64,000 nt of DNA from NCBI GenBank assembly GCA_020161815.1, contig JAIUOP010000014.1, positions 1 through 64,000 on the forward strand, read 5' to 3'. This DNA comes from Actinomycetota bacterium (GTDB taxonomy: Bacteria > Actinomycetota > Actinomycetes > Actinomycetales > Dermatophilaceae). Made by a program: the position numbers and the translations under genes. This document shows positions 18,533 through 27,190 of this stretch, piece after piece. Position 1 is the first letter of the stretch. The number at the start of each line of letters is the position of its first letter. Below the pieces are notes generated by a model. The model saw only the letters and a program-made list of their open reading frames with translations, did no database searches and was not told the origin of the DNA.

Positions 18533-18826
18533 ATGGTCCACCAGATTCCCCTCACCGAGAAGCCCTCCGGCGGCTGCGGCTGCGGCCACGCCCACGACGA
18601 GTCGGCGCCCGAGCTCGACGTGCGCGCCATCCCCCACGCGATCCGCCACGCAACGGTCTTCGGCGCGCTCTCGGCGATCCCGTCGGGCCGCTCGCTCGTC
18701 CTCGTCGCCCCGCACGACCCCAAGCCACTCCTCGCCCAGATCGCCGAGCGCGAGCAGGGCACGATCGCCGTGACCTACCTCGACGAGGGCCCCGAAACCT
18801 GGCGCCTGCGTCTCACCCGCGCCTGA
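18533..18826 (+). CDS. DUF2249-domain protein
   Basis: This 97-residue protein has a Cys/His-rich N-terminus (GGCGCGHAH) and a DUF2249 fold, with VRAIPHAIRHATVFGALSAIPSGRSLVLVAPHDPKPLLAQI ending in a Trp-containing strand. DUF2249 (TusA/SirA-like) proteins are usually encoded beside hemerythrins, nitrite reductase and NnrS and are thought to act in NO metabolism; the biochemistry is not established. The ATG is preceded by GACGGAGG. It heads the plus-strand operon 18533-23121. Confidence 0.85.
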   Translation: MVHQIPLTEKPSGGCGCGHAHDESAPELDVRAIPHAIRHATVFGALSAIPSGRSLVLVAPHDPKPLLAQIAEREQGTIAVTYLDEGPETWRLRLTRA

Positions 18827-18834
18827 CCTGCGCG

Positions 18835-19284
18835 ATGTGCTCCTACTGCGGCTGCGAGAGCGTCGAGGTCATCGGGCGCTTCATGCGCGAGCACACCGAG
18901 ATCGTCAACGCCTCGGGTGCCCTCCACGCCGCCTGCCGCGACGGAGACCCGCAGGCCCTGCACGCCGCCGCGGACCGGGTGCGCGCCCTCTTCGGGCCGC
19001 ACTCGGTCGCCGAGGAGGCCGGCATCTTCACCGTCCTCGCTGAGGACCCGGACTTCACCGAGCACGTCCACCAGCTGTGCCGGGAGCACGTTCGCCTCGA
19101 GGAGCTCCTCGACGGGGTCGTCACGGCACCGGACCCGGCCGCCCGGGAGGCGGCGTGGGCCGCCTACGAGCATCTGCTCCGCCACCACATCGACCGCGAG
19201 GACAACTCCCTCTTCCCGGCGGCGGCGATCGCCTTCGCCGGGCCCGAGTGGGAGCGGGTCACCGCGCTCACCCCGGACGCCTGA
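18835..19284 (+). CDS. Hemerythrin-like HHE domain protein
   Basis: The 149-residue four-helix-bundle protein shows spaced di-iron ligands: His in MREHTEI, His and Glu in PHSVAEE, His in EHVHQLCREH with Glu in RLEE, and His/Asp in LLRHHIDREDNSLFP. The N-terminus MCSYCGCE adds a CxxCxC cluster. Such proteins bind oxygen or NO, or sit beside denitrification enzymes to handle nitrosative stress. The start is eight bases after the DUF2249 stop; the next gene starts two bases after its own stop. Confidence 0.88.
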   Translation: MCSYCGCESVEVIGRFMREHTEIVNASGALHAACRDGDPQALHAAADRVRALFGPHSVAEEAGIFTVLAEDPDFTEHVHQLCREHVRLEELLDGVVTAPDPAAREAAWAAYEHLLRHHIDREDNSLFPAAAIAFAGPEWERVTALTPDA

Positions 19285-19285
19285 C

Positions 19286-20383
19286 GTGCACCGGAGGTCG
19301 TGGCTGCTGCTCCCGGCCGGCGTCGCGCTCCTCGCCGGCCTGGACGCCGGCCTGCTCCTCCTCGAGGTCCGGGCGCCCTTCGGCGCGTCCCACCTGCCCG
19401 GGGTGCACGGGGTCCTCATGGTGCTCGGCTTCCTCGGCACGCTGGTCGCCCTCGAGCGCGCCGTCGCCCTGCGCACCCCTTGGGCGTATGCCGCGCCCGC
19501 CCTCCTCGGCGCCGGCGCCCTCGCGCTCGTTGCCGGGGCGCGACTGCTCGGCCAGGTCCTCCTCGTCGACGGCCTCGTCGTCTTCCTCGGTGTCGCGGCG
19601 ATGTTGTGGCGGCGCCAGCGGGACGGGGCGGTGGCCGTCGAGGTGCTCGCCGTCGCGCACGGCCTCGCGGCCGCGGTGCTCTGGACCCGCCTCGAGGTCG
19701 CGGCCGTCCTCCCCCTCCTCGTCGGGTTCGTCGTCCTCACGATCGCCGCCGAGCGGGTCGAACTCGCGCGTCTCTCCCTCGGGCGTCGCGCCGACACCAC
19801 CCTGCTCCTCGTCGCCGGGGCGTATGCCGTCGCCGCCCTGGCCGCCCTCCTCCAGCCCGCCGTGGGGTCGCGCCTTGTGGCGCTCGTCCTCGTCGGGCTC
19901 TGTGCCTGGCTGGTCCGCCATGACGTCGCCCGGCGCACGATTCGGTCGACGGGGCTGCCGCGCTTCAGCGCCGCCGCGATGCTCACCGGCTGGGGCTGGC
20001 TGGCCGTGGCCGCGGCCACTTGGGCCGTCGTCGGGCCGCCGACCTCCCGACCCGCCTATGACGTCGTCGTCCACGGCGTCTTCCTCGGGTTCGCGATGAG
20101 CATGGTCCTGGCGCACGCGCCCGTCATCCTCCCCGCGGTCGTCCGCCGCCCGCTCCCCTACCGCCCCGTCCTCTGGCTCCCCCTCGTGGCGCTCCACGTC
20201 TCCCTCCTGGCCCGCGTGGCCGGGGACGCGCTGGGGGCGGACGTGCTGTGGCGGGCCGGTGGCGTCGGGACGGTCCTCGCCCTCCTGCTCCTGCCCGTCA
20301 CGGCCGCCCTGTCGGCCGCGCTCGGACCACCGCCCGCGCCATCTCGCGCCCCGGCGCGCCCACACGACAGGGCCCTCGCATGA
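19286..20383 (+). CDS. NnrS-like polytopic membrane protein
   Basis: The 365-residue GTG-started protein has about ten to twelve hydrophobic segments and conserved-looking intramembrane His residues (SHLPGVHGVLMVLGF, HGVFLGFAMSMVLAHAPVILPAV). This matches NnrS-related heme/copper membrane proteins found with nitrite and NO reductases. NnrS is linked to relief of nitrosative stress. The GTG at 19286 is two bases after the hemerythrin stop, and the stop overlaps the nirK start as ATGA. Confidence 0.7.
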   Translation: MHRRSWLLLPAGVALLAGLDAGLLLLEVRAPFGASHLPGVHGVLMVLGFLGTLVALERAVALRTPWAYAAPALLGAGALALVAGARLLGQVLLVDGLVVFLGVAAMLWRRQRDGAVAVEVLAVAHGLAAAVLWTRLEVAAVLPLLVGFVVLTIAAERVELARLSLGRRADTTLLLVAGAYAVAALAALLQPAVGSRLVALVLVGLCAWLVRHDVARRTIRSTGLPRFSAAAMLTGWGWLAVAAATWAVVGPPTSRPAYDVVVHGVFLGFAMSMVLAHAPVILPAVVRRPLPYRPVLWLPLVALHVSLLARVAGDALGADVLWRAGGVGTVLALLLLPVTAALSAALGPPPAPSRAPARPHDRALA

Positions 20384-23121
20384 GCGTCTCCAGCCCGCCC
20401 CGCCCGGGGAAGCCGACCGGCGCACGACCCACCGGGACCCGCGGCGTGTGGGCCCTGCGTGACCGCCCCGGCGTCGTCTGGCTCGCCCTCGCGGCGCTGC
20501 TCACGCTGGGGCACCCCTTCGTCCCCGGCTCGCGCTGGCTCATGGTGCACCTGGTCCTGCTCGGAGCGCTCACCCACTCGATCCTCGTGTGGTCGACCCA
20601 CTTCACCCAGGCCCTGCTCAAGACCCCGACCAGCCTCGACGACCGACGGCGGCAGTCGATCCGGCTCTCGCTCAACATCGTCGGGGTCACCCTCGTGCTC
20701 ATCGGGGTACCGACGACGCTGTGGCCGGTGACGCTCACCGGGGCGGTGCTCTTCTCCGCGGCCGTCGGGTGGCACGGCGCGATGCTCCGGGTCCGGCTGC
20801 GACGCGCCCTGCCCGGCCGCTTCCGGGTCACCGTGCGCTACTACCTCGCGGCGGCTGCCCTCGTCCCCGTCGGCGCGACCTTCGGGGTCCTCCTCGCGCG
20901 CGGGCTCGACGACGAGACCCAGGGTCGGCTGCTGCTCGCCCACACGATGACGATGCTCCTGGGCTGGGTCGGTCTCACCGTCACCGGGACCCTCGTCACC
21001 CTCTGGCCGACGATGCTCCGCACCCGCATGGACGACCGCGCCGAAACCCTTGCGCGGCAGGCCCTTCCGCTGCTCCTCCTGGGGATCGTGGTCGTGGCCA
21101 CCGGGGCCACGCTGGGGCTCGAGGCGGTCGCCCTGGCCGGGCTCGCGGCATACGTCCTCGGAGTCGGGTGGTGGGGGCGGGCACTGTGGCGCCCCGCCCG
21201 CCAGGCCCCGCCACGCCACTTCGCGACGTGGTCGGTGACCGCCGCCCTCGGCTGGGCCCTCGCCGGCCTCGCCCTCGTCGTGACCACCCTCGTGGCGGCG
21301 CCGAGCTGGGCGCGCGTCGGGGAGACCTACGGGCGCGTGACGGCGGTCGTCGTCGTGGGCTTCGCGGCGCAGCTGCTCACCGGCGCGCTCTCGCACCTCG
21401 TGCCGTCCGTCCTCGGCGGCGGCCCGTCGGTCGTGCGCGCGGGCTCCGCATGGTTCGACCGGTATGCCGTGTGGCGGCTCGTCGTCGTCAACCTCGGGCT
21501 CGCGCTGTGCCTCCTGCCGGTGCCGAGCGTCGTGCGGGTCATCGTCTCCACGCTCGTGCTCGTCGCGCTCGTGGCCTTCATCCCGCTCATGCTCGCGGCG
21601 GTGCGGGCGGCCGTCGCCGCGCGGCGTTCCCTCGTCGAGGGGGTCGCCGCGGCGGCCGAGGCCGGGCACCGACCCGCGCGGATCGGGCCCGAGCCGCGCG
21701 TCTTCTCCTCGGGGCAGCTCGTCGGCGGGCTCGCGACCCTGCTGCTCGCCACCTCGGTCGGCATCGCCTTGGACCCGGCGGCGGCGGGCTTCGTCACCGC
21801 GGCGGGGTCGTCGGTGGCAGCACCGGCCGACCCGGCGGCCCCCCTCGCAGGCTCGGTCACCCCGACCGGCGAGACGACGACGGTCACCGTCGAGGCGCAC
21901 GACATGAGCTACTCCCCCGCGTCGGTCACCGTCCCGGCCGGCAACCGCCTCGTCATCGAGCTCGTCAACAGGGACGACCGCTCACCCCACGACCTCGCCT
22001 TCTCAGCGAGCCTCAAGACGCACCGGGTCATGCCGGGCCAGCGCGCGACCCTCGACGTCGGTGTCGTCGGCGCCTCGGGCGAGGGCTGGTGCACGATCGT
22101 CGGTCACCGCCAGATGGGAATGGTGCTCCAGGTCGTCGTCGAGGGCGGCGAGCCGGCGGCCTCGGGCGTTGGCGCGGCCCCCGCACCCGGCGACGCGGCG
22201 GCACCGCAGGGCGATGCCGGCATCCGGCTGGGGCAGCAGCCCGCTCCCGGCTTCCGGGCCGTCGACGCGACCCTGCCGCCGCTGACGACACCGGCCGGCA
22301 CGACCCACGAGGTCACCCTGACCGTCGAGGAGACCGTGCTCGAGGTCGCCCCCGGCATCCGCCAGGAGCGATGGACCTACAACGGGCAGGTGCCCGGGCC
22401 GACCCTCCACGGCCGGATCGGCGACACCTTCGTCGTGACGCTCGTCAACAAGGGGAGCATGGGGCACTCGATCGACTTCCACGCCGGCGAGCGAGCCCCC
22501 GACGAGGTGATGCGCACGGTGCCACCGGGCGAGTCCCTCACCTACCGCTTCACCGCGGCGCGGGCCGGGATCTGGATGTACCACTGCTCGACGATGCCGA
22601 TGTCGGCGCACATCGCCGCCGGCATGCACGGCGCCGTCGTCATCGAGCCCGACGGCCTGCCCGCGGTGTCCCGCAGCTACGTCCTCGTCCAGTCCGAGGT
22701 CCACGTCGACGGGCCGGGCACCGGCGAGCCGCGCGAGGTCGACGCGGACGCCGCCGCCGTGGACCGCCCGGACGCGGTGACCTTCAACGGCATCGCGAAC
22801 CAGTACGACGCGCGACCCCTCACGGCAGCCGTCGGCGAGCGGGTGCGCGTGTGGGTGCTGGCCGCCGGACCGAACCGCGGGATCGACTTCCACGTCGTCG
22901 GTGGACAGTTCGACACCGTGTGGTCGGAGGGTGGCTACCTGCTCCGGGCCGGCACTGACGCCTTCGGCGGGCGCGGCGGCGGCAGCCAGGTGCTCTCCCT
23001 CGGCGCGGCGCAGGGCGGATTCGTCGAGCTGGCGCTGCCCGAGCCCGGCCACTACCCCTTCGTCACGCACGCGATGGCGGACGCCGAGAAGGGCGCCCAC
23101 GGGGTGCTCAAGGTCAGGTGA
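20380..23121 (+). CDS. nirK: Membrane-cupredoxin-copper nitrite reductase fusion (NirK type)
   Basis: The 913-residue protein has three modules. Residues 30-490 hold about twelve membrane helices resembling the preceding NnrS-like protein. Residues 530-615 form a cupredoxin with type-1 copper ligands (His in SPHDLAF; Cys, His and Met in WCTIVGHRQMGM). Residues 650-913 form a two-domain NirK: type-1/2 ligands in GHSIDFHAG and MYHCSTMPMSAHIAAGMHG, active-site Asp in SIDFH, catalytic His in GIDFHVVGG, last type-2 His in FVTHAMADAEKGAH. It reduces nitrite to NO outside the membrane, the cupredoxin probably relaying electrons from the membrane module. Single-polypeptide fusion of all three is notable; parts are known in actinobacteria. 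Confidence 0.9.
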   Translation: MSVSSPPRPGKPTGARPTGTRGVWALRDRPGVVWLALAALLTLGHPFVPGSRWLMVHLVLLGALTHSILVWSTHFTQALLKTPTSLDDRRRQSIRLSLNIVGVTLVLIGVPTTLWPVTLTGAVLFSAAVGWHGAMLRVRLRRALPGRFRVTVRYYLAAAALVPVGATFGVLLARGLDDETQGRLLLAHTMTMLLGWVGLTVTGTLVTLWPTMLRTRMDDRAETLARQALPLLLLGIVVVATGATLGLEAVALAGLAAYVLGVGWWGRALWRPARQAPPRHFATWSVTAALGWALAGLALVVTTLVAAPSWARVGETYGRVTAVVVVGFAAQLLTGALSHLVPSVLGGGPSVVRAGSAWFDRYAVWRLVVVNLGLALCLLPVPSVVRVIVSTLVLVALVAFIPLMLAAVRAAVAARRSLVEGVAAAAEAGHRPARIGPEPRVFSSGQLVGGLATLLLATSVGIALDPAAAGFVTAAGSSVAAPADPAAPLAGSVTPTGETTTVTVEAHDMSYSPASVTVPAGNRLVIELVNRDDRSPHDLAFSASLKTHRVMPGQRATLDVGVVGASGEGWCTIVGHRQMGMVLQVVVEGGEPAASGVGAAPAPGDAAAPQGDAGIRLGQQPAPGFRAVDATLPPLTTPAGTTHEVTLTVEETVLEVAPGIRQERWTYNGQVPGPTLHGRIGDTFVVTLVNKGSMGHSIDFHAGERAPDEVMRTVPPGESLTYRFTAARAGIWMYHCSTMPMSAHIAAGMHGAVVIEPDGLPAVSRSYVLVQSEVHVDGPGTGEPREVDADAAAVDRPDAVTFNGIANQYDARPLTAAVGERVRVWVLAAGPNRGIDFHVVGGQFDTVWSEGGYLLRAGTDAFGGRGGGSQVLSLGAAQGGFVELALPEPGHYPFVTHAMADAEKGAHGVLKVR

Positions 23122-23802: not shown

Positions 23803-25133
23803 TCAGGTGAAGAGGGCACGCCCCCAGACGTCGCTCGGGTCGTCGGCATCGATACCGGGCGGGCAGGCAAAGAGCGCCGAGCCGTCATGGACGATGTATT
23901 CGTTCAGGCGATCCTTGGCCGCGAGCGCCCGCTGCATCGGCACGAACTGCGCGTGCGCATCGCGCATGAACGCAATGAAGAACAGGCCCGCGTCGAGGCG
24001 CCCGAGTCCGTCGGTCCCGTCGGTGAAGTTGTAGCCCCGACGCAGGATCCGTATGCCGTCCAGCTGGCTTGCGTGGGCCAGGAAGACATGGCTGTCGCGC
24101 GGGATCGCCGGCTCACCATCGCTGCCGAGCGCGGCGAAGTCCGGCTCGTCGAACTCCTCCGATCCGCCCATCGGCTCACCCTTGAGCTTGCGTCGGCCGA
24201 AGGTCGCGTCCTGCTCCTGCAGGGAGGTGCGGTCCCACACCTCGATGTGCATCCGGATCCGGCGCGCCACCAAGTAGGACCCGCCGGCCAGCCACGCAGC
24301 GGCGCCGGGCACGTCGTCGGGCTGAACCCACACGTGCCGCTCGAGCAACTCAGGCTCCTCGGCCTTGAGATTGTTGGTGCCGTCCTTGTAGCCGAAGAGG
24401 TTCCGCGGCGTTGCCTGGGAGGTCGATGTCGATGAGGTGCGGCCGAAGCCCAGTTGGCTCCAGCGCACCGAGACCCTGCCTGCTCCGATGCGCACGAGGT
24501 TGCGGATCGCATGGACCGCGACCTGGGGGTCATGGGCGCATGCCTGGAGCGCCATGTCCCCACCGGAGCGTTCTGGGCGCAGCGCGTCCCCGCGAAAGGC
24601 GGGCAACTCGATCAACGCCTCCGGACGCCGGTCAGCCAAACCGAAGCGATCGTCGAAGAGGGAAGGGCCGAAGCCGATCGTCACCGTCAGGCCCGAGGCG
24701 GGCAGGCCCATCGCCTCACCGGTGTCGGCCGGTGCCGCGAGCGGATTGCCCCCCGCGACACCACCGGGCGCCGCCTCGGCCCCGAGCGTCATTCGCTCCG
24801 TGGCCTTGGTCCAGGCGCGGAGCAGAGCCGTGAGCTCTTCGCGCGTCGTGCCCGGCACGACGTCCAGGGCGACGAGTGCATCCGGTCCTGCGCCGGGGTG
24901 ACGATCCCGGCCTGGTGGACGCCGCGGAACGGGACGGCCGCGGACATGTCCTCGCCTGCCGGTGCAGCCATGGAGTCGGCCCCGCTGGAACCGGAGGCCG
25001 CAGCGCCCGCCCGGCTCCCGGCATACACCGCTCCGGCCGTGGCCGCCGCGAGCCCGGCGCCGACACCCGTGCTCAGCACGGCCCGGCGGCTCGCCGCACC
25101 GCGTCCAGTCGCCTGCGCCTCGCGCTCGGTCAC
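23803..25133 (-). pseudogene. efeB: Deferrochelatase/Dyp-type peroxidase EfeB, frameshifted
   Basis: The GTG start at 25133 overlaps the efeO stop. The N-terminus has a Tat signal (SRRAVLSTGVGAG) and reaches PAQDRMH, where the frame breaks at about 24876-24880. Adding one C after ATGCA restores DRMHLVALDVVPGTTREEL and the rest: heme motif YKDGTNN, Arg-rich IRMHIEVWDRTSLQEQ and the C-terminal DGLGRLDAGLFFIAFMRD. EfeB removes iron from heme or oxidises Fe(II) for EfeU. The remainder shows no decay, so either a recent mutation or a sequencing error is likely. Confidence 0.85.
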
Positions 25134-26251
25134 TGGGTGGCCAGCGCGGCGCCGACCCTGCCGACCTGCTCCCCGACCGCAGTCAGCGCGTCGGACAGGG
25201 CCTTGATCTCGGCCTGCGGGACGTCGGTGTAGAGGCGGTAGCCCTCGCCCTCCCGCTGCGCCGCGATGAGCCCGTCGAGGGTGGTGGCGGCCTGGTTGTA
25301 GTCCGCGACGAGGTCCTGGTTGCGGTCGGTGAGGATCGGCTTGAGAACCTCCATGCCCTTCTTCGAGCCCTCCCAGTTGGCGGCGAAGTCGTGGAGGTCG
25401 GTGTGGCTGTAGCGGTCCTCCTCGCCGGTGATCTTGCCGGTCGCCATCTCGTCGAGGAGTTCCTTGGCGCCATTGGCGATCTTGAGGCCGTCGAGGTCTG
25501 CGGCCTTGGACTTCTCGACGATGGTGGTCACGTCGGCGAGCAGCCGGTCGGCGATCGCATCGCTGTCGGCCTGGAGGCCGTCGACCCACAGGTCCTTCTC
25601 CAGTCGGTGGAAGCCGGTGAACTCCAGACCCTCCGCGATCACGTCCTCGCGGCCGTCGATCGCGGGGTCGAGGTCCCCGAACGACTCGGCGACCGGCTCG
25701 ATCCGCTCCCACGGGGCCCGCGCCACGGCATACAGGCTCTTGGCCTGCGCCACGTCCTTGGCCTTCACCGCAGCGACGAATTCCGCTGTGCGGATGAGGA
25801 GTTCGTCAGCCTGGGCGGACACCCACGCCTGGTACTCCCCGGCCGCCGCCTCGAGCTTGGGGTCGGTGTCCGTGGTGATGGTGTCACCGGTCACCGCCAG
25901 CGCGGCATCGATCCCGTCGCCGACCATGCCCGGCTTGCAGTTGCCCTTGTAGGCTCCCGGCCTCTTCAGCGTCACATGGAGTGAGCGGGTCATCCCCGGC
26001 GTGAGGTTCTCGACCTCGGAGACCACCATGCCGTCCTCGGTGAGGACGTAGAACTCGGTGACCTTGGTCCCCGTGTTGGTGATCCTGAACTCGCGATCCC
26101 CCGTCGTCGTGGTGCTTGTTGACATGGTGCAGGCGTCATCGGAGGCGTCGACGGTGATGGCCGAGCCCCCGGCGGACTTGGCCTGGGTGCAGGCGCCGAG
26201 CGCCACGACGAGGAGGGGCGCGAGCAGGACGGTGGTGGCGCGGGTGCGCAT
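25130..26251 (-). CDS. efeO: Iron uptake lipoprotein EfeO
   Basis: The 373-residue protein has a lipobox signal (LLVVALGACTQA, lipidated Cys about residue 21), an N-terminal cupredoxin-like domain (TITVDASDDACTM to GNCKPGM), and a C-terminal imelysin-type M75 helical domain with the metal motif in GFHRLEKDLW. It captures iron outside the membrane and hands it to EfeU. ATG 26251 fits the signal peptide; the frame is open upstream without homology. It lies between efeU and efeB in one operon. Confidence 0.92.
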   Translation of the reverse strand: MRTRATTVLLAPLLVVALGACTQAKSAGGSAITVDASDDACTMSTSTTTTGDREFRITNTGTKVTEFYVLTEDGMVVSEVENLTPGMTRSLHVTLKRPGAYKGNCKPGMVGDGIDAALAVTGDTITTDTDPKLEAAAGEYQAWVSAQADELLIRTAEFVAAVKAKDVAQAKSLYAVARAPWERIEPVAESFGDLDPAIDGREDVIAEGLEFTGFHRLEKDLWVDGLQADSDAIADRLLADVTTIVEKSKAADLDGLKIANGAKELLDEMATGKITGEEDRYSHTDLHDFAANWEGSKKGMEVLKPILTDRNQDLVADYNQAATTLDGLIAAQREGEGYRLYTDVPQAEIKALSDALTAVGEQVGRVGAALATQ

Positions 26252-26304
26252 GCGGAGGTTCTCCTTGGGGGTGGTCCCCGTTGGCGGCATGCCGTGGGGC
26301 TGGG

Positions 26305-27165
26305 TCAGGCGGGGGCGTTGGCCTCGGCCGCGGGCGCGGGGGTGGCCGCCACCGGGTCGGCGGTCTTCGGACCGCGGAGGAAGAGTGGGAGCACGATGGC
26401 GACATAGAGGAGCCAGACGGCGGCCTCGAGGACCGTGGTGCGAGGCGAGAAGTTGAAGATGCCCTTCAGGAGGGTGCCGTACCACGAGTCCGGTGCGATG
26501 ACGTGGGAGACGTCGAACGCGAGGGTGCTCAGACCGGGGACGACGCCGGCCTCCTGCAGGTCGTGGAAGCCGTAGGCGAGGATGCCCGCCGCGACCAGGA
26601 TGAGGAAGATACCGGTCCACCGGAAGAACGTCGTGAGGTTGATCCGCAGGGCGCCGCGATAGATCAGCAGGCCGAGGACGATCGCGCCGCCGATGCCGAC
26701 GACCCAGCCCAGGAGCGGGACATTGTTGCCGGCGCCGGCGCTCTGCGCGGTGGCGTAGAAGAAGACCGCGGTCTCCAGACCCTCACGACCGACGGCAAGG
26801 AAGCCGACGAGCGCGATCGCGAGCGGGCCCAGGTCGAGGGCGCGGTCGAGTTGGCCCTTGAGTTCGCCACTGAGGCTGCGGGCGGCCGACTTCATCCAGA
26901 AGACCATGACCGTGACGAAGCCGACGGCGATGATGCTCGCGATCCCGCCGATCAGTTCCTGCGCCTCGAAGGTGAGCTCCCGCGTCCCGAAGGTGAGGGC
27001 GGCCCCCAGGAGCACCGACAGCGCAATCGCCACGCCGACGCCGACCCAGACGTACTTCAGAGCCCAGGTGCGCCGGGTCTTGACGAGGAAGGCGACGAGG
27101 ATGACGACGACGAGGGCGGCCTCGAGGCCTTCACGCAGCCCGACGAGGGCATTGGCGAGGAACAC
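26305..27165 (-). CDS. efeU: Ferrous/ferric iron permease EfeU (FTR1 family)
   Basis: The 286-residue protein has seven hydrophobic segments and the two iron-binding motifs REGLEAALVV (helix 1, residue 11 on) and GREGLETAVFF (helix 4). It imports iron across the cytoplasmic membrane together with EfeO and EfeB. The GTG start at 27165 is 6 bp from an IdeR-type box and has no visible Shine-Dalgarno sequence, so a leaderless transcript is possible. The low-complexity Ala/Pro C-terminus is normal for the family. Confidence 0.93.
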   Translation of the reverse strand: MFLANALVGLREGLEAALVVVILVAFLVKTRRTWALKYVWVGVGVAIALSVLLGAALTFGTRELTFEAQELIGGIASIIAVGFVTVMVFWMKSAARSLSGELKGQLDRALDLGPLAIALVGFLAVGREGLETAVFFYATAQSAGAGNNVPLLGWVVGIGGAIVLGLLIYRGALRINLTTFFRWTGIFLILVAAGILAYGFHDLQEAGVVPGLSTLAFDVSHVIAPDSWYGTLLKGIFNFSPRTTVLEAAVWLLYVAIVLPLFLRGPKTADPVAATPAPAAEANAPA

Positions 27166-27171
27166 AGTTAG

Positions 27172-27190
27172 AAAGGTAAGCCTTACCTAA
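27172..27190. promoter_or_regulatory. IdeR/DtxR iron box upstream of efeUOB
   Basis: AAAGGTAAGCCTTACCTAA is a 19-bp near-palindrome (AGGTAAG/CTTACCT core). It fits the DtxR/IdeR consensus TWAGGTWAGSCTWACCTWA at most positions. It lies just before the efeU GTG, so binding of the iron-loaded regulator would block transcription at its start. Iron repression of efeUOB is the established logic of such boxes; the regulator gene is not in the window. Confidence 0.88.

Follow-up and report, generated by a model that had tools for sequence, protein, structure and literature searches.

How electrons are supplied to the copper nitrite reductase (NirK) of Actinobacteria is unsettled, and work on Intrasporangium calvum assumes the bc1 complex as the route (PMC6349771). 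The locus described here, which lies in a window of 64,000 nucleotides (the whole stretch of DNA analyzed, from contig JAIUOP010000014.1 of a member of the Dermatophilaceae), raises this question by joining NirK to a large membrane module. A single open frame of 913 codons without internal stop encodes the membrane module, a cupredoxin, and a two-domain NirK, and its ATG overlaps the stop codon of the upstream gene (ATGA). Whether this exact layout had been described could not be checked in the first-pass annotation; it is in fact published. Decleyre et al. 2016 (PMC4770552) reported a NirK of ~900 aa from Propionibacterium acnes in which a transmembrane domain of 400 aa, listed as “of unknown function”, is combined with a CX4HX4M cupredoxin, and the window protein has the same layout, that is, ~900 aa, an N-terminal transmembrane part of ~400 aa, a C-x4-H-x4-M cupredoxin, and a complete NirK. 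All actinobacterial NirKs examined in that study carry the cupredoxin, and the transmembrane part is not found in all of them. The present analysis adds a predicted fold for that transmembrane domain, a pair of histidines invariant in it, and the existence of split relatives. The features of the locus are collected in Table 1.

Table 1. Features of the nirK operon (positions in the window)
Feature	Position	Strand	Basis and remarks
DUF2249 protein	18533..18826	+	PF10006, E 1.3e-24
Hemerythrin-domain protein	18835..19284	+	PF01814, E 5.5e-15
Upstream membrane protein, 365 aa	19286..20383	+	Overlaps fusion start (ATGA)
nirK fusion gene (membrane module, cupredoxin, two-domain NirK)	20380..23121	+	913 aa; layout in 71/80 public loci
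Membrane module, aa 21-425, 12 helices, heme-copper oxidase subunit I fold	20440..21654	+	AlphaFold2 model, Foldseek, conservation
Thirteenth hydrophobic segment, aa ~446-472	21715..21795	+	Hydropathy; predicted topology
Cupredoxin domain, aa ~490-595	21847..22164	+	PF13473; C-x4-H-x4-M; ligands invariant in 72 sequences
NirK, two cupredoxin domains, aa 628-913	22261..23118	+	TIGR02376 and PDB NirK matches; conservation

The copper-binding part of the protein is readily recognized. A Pfam search places Cupredoxin_1 at residues 496 to 560, and residues ~628 to 912 match the NCBIfam model TIGR02376 (158.3 bits, E = 2.8e-46) and, as the best PDB hit, the NirK structure 3x1e (E = 2.5e-44). The score stays below the curated TIGR02376 cut-off of 296.3 bits, which is a naming threshold and not a defining feature of the enzyme; functional NirK is instead recognized by its copper and catalytic ligand residues (PMC4770552). 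The cupredoxin has a full set of type-1 copper ligands (H537, C571, H576, and M581), and the NirK part has the type-1 ligands H696, C736, H744, and M749, the type-2 ligands H701, H735, and H897, and the catalytic residues D699 and H838; all of these are kept in 68 to 72 of 72 aligned sequences. The three-part layout with complete copper sites, as first proposed from the DNA letters, is thus borne out by the Pfam, NCBIfam, and PDB searches and by ligand conservation, and judged by these residues the fusion protein is predicted to be a dissimilatory NO-forming copper nitrite reductase.

A stop or frameshift between the modules would have pointed to an artificial join. The frame is intact in the window, and a frameshift or assembly artefact was rejected because the same one-frame layout of module, cupredoxin, and NirK is present in 71 of 80 public actinobacterial loci, which were retained from a scan of one genome per species that yielded 505 relatives of the membrane module. 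The fused proteins are ~875 to 1020 aa long, with a median of 903 (approximate values, counted from near the module start). Among the nine exceptions, three (L124, L141, and L172) show an assembly gap, written as a run of Ns, behind the module, four are truncated at or near contig ends (L154, L158, L171, and L185), and two (L166 and L173) carry the module by itself and no NirK in the locus. The nearest relatives belong to the Dermatophilaceae/Intrasporangiaceae, for instance Phycicoccus (the module of P. elongatus shares 78% identity), and the fused form is also present in a strain of I. calvum other than C5 (L163). Two further fusions, in records labelled as an Acidobacteria metagenome-assembled genome (L145) and as Bacillus sp. 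AZ43 (L184), look actinobacterial; these records are probably mislabelled or misbinned.

No Pfam family was matched by residues 1 to ~430, and PDB sequences searched with a profile of the module likewise gave no match. A single-sequence AlphaFold prediction of the full-length protein was unusable (pLDDT 40). From a 72-sequence alignment of the window module and 71 public relatives, AlphaFold2 gave a module model with a pLDDT of 94.8, a pTM of 0.92, and 12 long helices. When this model was compared with the PDB by Foldseek, ranks 1 to 46 were all occupied by subunit I of the heme-copper oxidase superfamily (probability >0.9 each), including cbb3, aa3, ba3, and bo3 oxidases and the NO reductases cNOR and qNOR; the best match was cbb3 3mk7 (E = 4.8e-4, probability 1.00), and cNOR 3o0r was also matched. 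TM-scores by query were mostly 0.5 to 0.7, at sequence identities of 8 to 17%. Weak COX1 Pfam matches were obtained for two members of the module family, over the region of the H188 helix.

The conserved residues of the module set it apart from these enzymes. H57 (codon 20548-20550), H66, H132, and H188 (codon 20941-20943) are invariant in the 72 fused sequences; among 101 fused and stand-alone members, the only invariant histidines are H57 on helix 2 and H188 on helix 6, and Q331 on helix 10 is kept in 99 of the 101. The module consists of three four-helix units, in which helices 2, 6, and 10 take pseudo-equivalent places. Subunit I of heme-copper oxidases and NO reductases has the 12-helix fold in common with the module, whereas the six-histidine set of heme and CuB ligands, including the helix-10 H-x-H, is absent from the 101 module sequences, with glutamine replacing histidine on helix 10. 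Modelled in this way, the module looks related to heme-copper oxidase subunit I but catalytically reduced: with only H57 and H188 invariant it is too ligand-poor for an oxidase, and these two residues could hold one heme b. Assigning them to one specific oxidase ligand pair was dropped, since the registers of the two COX1 matches disagree (COX1 positions 3 to 181 and 314 to 402), as follows from the pseudo-threefold fold.

The module had been called NnrS-like in the first-pass annotation. At the sequence level this membership was rejected (no PF05940 match in Pfam, and profile-profile probabilities of 0.4 to 1% in hhalign), and the term stands only for a wider superfamily in which NnrS is reportedly placed. 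The HCO-homology (HCOH) proteins, as Pei and colleagues are said to have defined them in 2014, include NnrS and reportedly combine two conserved histidines with 12 helices in three units; the model and alignment of the module show 12 helices and a pair of invariant histidines. NnrS and other HCOH proteins are said to have in common with it many helices, few conserved histidines, a denitrification context, and an oxidase-like fold. The module differs from NnrS in its lack of a detectable sequence relation, in having its histidines on helices 2 and 6, and in being fused to a cupredoxin-NirK. One explanation modelled on proposals for NnrS-type proteins is that NO formed by NirK is bound or channelled by a heme of the module, whether for protection, for delivery to an NO reductase, or for sensing. 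The module does belong to the same wide fold superfamily as the NO reductases, and in other families it lies beside regulators of the Rrf2 type (L106 and, by sequence, also L116), a family that includes the NO-sensing NsrR. The operon also encodes a hemerythrin and a DUF2249 protein, from families tied to NO and denitrification (PMC11218638). Even so, we consider NO handling unlikely: no NO reduction is expected from a module without a CuB/FeB ligand set, the covalent cupredoxin-NirK fusion fits electron delivery at least equally well, and no NnrS kinship is detectable at the sequence level.

The oxidase-core fold instead suggests how electrons might reach NirK. Our main reading, which we hold tentatively and put at a probability of about 0.4, is that the protein is a membrane-anchored NO-forming copper nitrite reductase that is probably fed through the oxidase-fold module. 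The module, with 12 helices in three pseudo-symmetric four-helix units and no CuB or high-spin ligand set, would use H57 and H188 to bind one heme b close to the outer side of the membrane, and the thirteenth hydrophobic segment is predicted to place the copper domains, cupredoxin and NirK, on that same side. Menaquinol is the probable source of electrons, and the membrane protein encoded just upstream may take part; heme b would reduce the cupredoxin copper, from which electrons would move on to the type-1 and then the type-2 copper of NirK, where nitrite would be reduced to NO. It is plausible that the cupredoxin acts as the protein's own electron carrier. The cupredoxin-tethered NirK of Hyphomicrobium denitrificans and cytochrome c-tethered NirKs also have a redox domain tethered to the NirK core but, unlike the window protein, they are without a multi-helix membrane module. 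For other NirKs, PMC4770552 considers the tethered cupredoxin too distant from the core, mentions a T1 mutant that was more active, and calls a role of this cupredoxin in electron transfer doubtful. A membrane-bound NirK activity of Bacillus azotoformans that accepts menaquinol is recounted in PMC3475470 (citing Suharti and de Vries 2005), with the route described there as unknown. That the window protein is a single-polypeptide menaquinol:nitrite oxidoreductase, in which the module is the quinol-oxidizing input and nitrite is reduced to NO without cytochrome bcc, is possible yet doubtful. Many NirKs function without such a module, which counts against it as an electron feed.

The module might also serve as an anchor only, holding the enzyme at the membrane while the bcc complex or its cytochrome c feeds the tethered cupredoxin and the histidines play a structural part. 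Actinobacteria have no Gram-negative-type periplasm, so anchoring would be useful to them; the NirKs of Bacillus and Geobacillus are anchored as predicted lipoproteins (PMC3475470), the bc1 route assumed for I. calvum would suit such an arrangement, and many actinobacterial cupredoxin-NirKs lack the membrane part (PMC4770552; L009 to L013 in our set). A lipid anchor, however, would cost far less than a 12-helix domain that keeps two histidines invariant, and unfused modules adjoin nirK without any covalent anchoring, which leaves this explanation somewhat unlikely in our judgment.

These unfused relatives were found in other actinobacterial families, in which a module gene lies close to nirK in seven sampled loci (L111 to L117); in two of them, L114 and L116, the module, the cupredoxin, and NirK are encoded side by side by one gene each. 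Since separate module genes adjoin nirK and cupredoxin genes, joint function is supported, and the three parts plausibly work together. In a module tree (a quick build with SH-aLRT support only), the fused forms cluster, with 3 label changes and none of 500 shuffles as low. The two loci that keep the module without NirK (L166 and L173) are related to Propionibacteriaceae and nested inside the fused clade, and look like losses of the NirK part. Stand-alone modules also occur with neither nirK nor the upstream-type gene nearby (L109 and L110), and the module may thus serve some other general purpose. In L104 (342-8330), where nirK is absent, an upstream-type gene and a stand-alone module neighbor COX1 and a gene for a subunit with a CuA motif.

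The operon order is DUF2249, hemerythrin, the 365-aa membrane protein, and the nirK fusion. The 365-aa protein matched no Pfam family; a member of its family immediately precedes the fusion in 55 of the 66 loci that could be tested, and within this family H263 and H277 are invariant and H41 is near-invariant. According to the first-pass annotation, the module resembles the product of this gene and the two may derive from one another. The first half of this idea finds weak support, in that hhalign with deep profiles gives a probability of 80% (E = 1.4e-5, 303 colinear columns; reversed control 0.3%), whereas shallower profiles give only 21%; remote homology of the module and the upstream protein is likely. 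A recent or local duplication was rejected, because both families are old and occur as separate neighbors in other actinobacterial families, and because the upstream type also adjoins stand-alone modules (L104 to L106), which makes the pair itself an old one. A dedicated, conserved membrane gene upstream of a copper enzyme, together with a CsoR-like regulator elsewhere in the window, could suggest that the three copper domains are supplied with their metal by the module and the upstream protein. We regard copper loading or assembly as very unlikely, as the conserved residues in the 101 module sequences include no Cys/Met-rich copper-transport motif and the fold of the module is of an electron-transfer type.

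In the host genome, narG scored above cut-off, a heme-copper protein of NO-reductase-like type is present, and nosZ was not found above cut-off. This context resembles that of I. calvum C5, which denitrifies as far as N2O and shows increasing nirK transcript levels with nitrite (PMC6349771), and fits a membrane-embedded nitrite reductase. If the module does take electrons directly from menaquinol, this would alter the energy accounting for Gram-positive denitrifiers, of which some stop at N2O, and the models of their pathway choice; the split gene neighbors allow a direct, part-by-part test. The NO-reductase-like protein (G000:C2:44598-46034; L075) is preceded by a cupredoxin-like subunit (L075:815-1426) without the usual CuA cysteines and is possibly an eNOR-like enzyme.

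Two other gene groups in the window are of note. Convergent with the nirK fusion, at 23803-27186 on the minus strand, are genes for a Dyp-type peroxidase, an imelysin with a cupredoxin-like domain, and an FTR1 permease, an EfeUOB-like iron uptake cluster. The CsoR-like metal repressor (PF02583) lies in the region 141-2754 and is followed there by a long frame that may encode a copper P-type ATPase.
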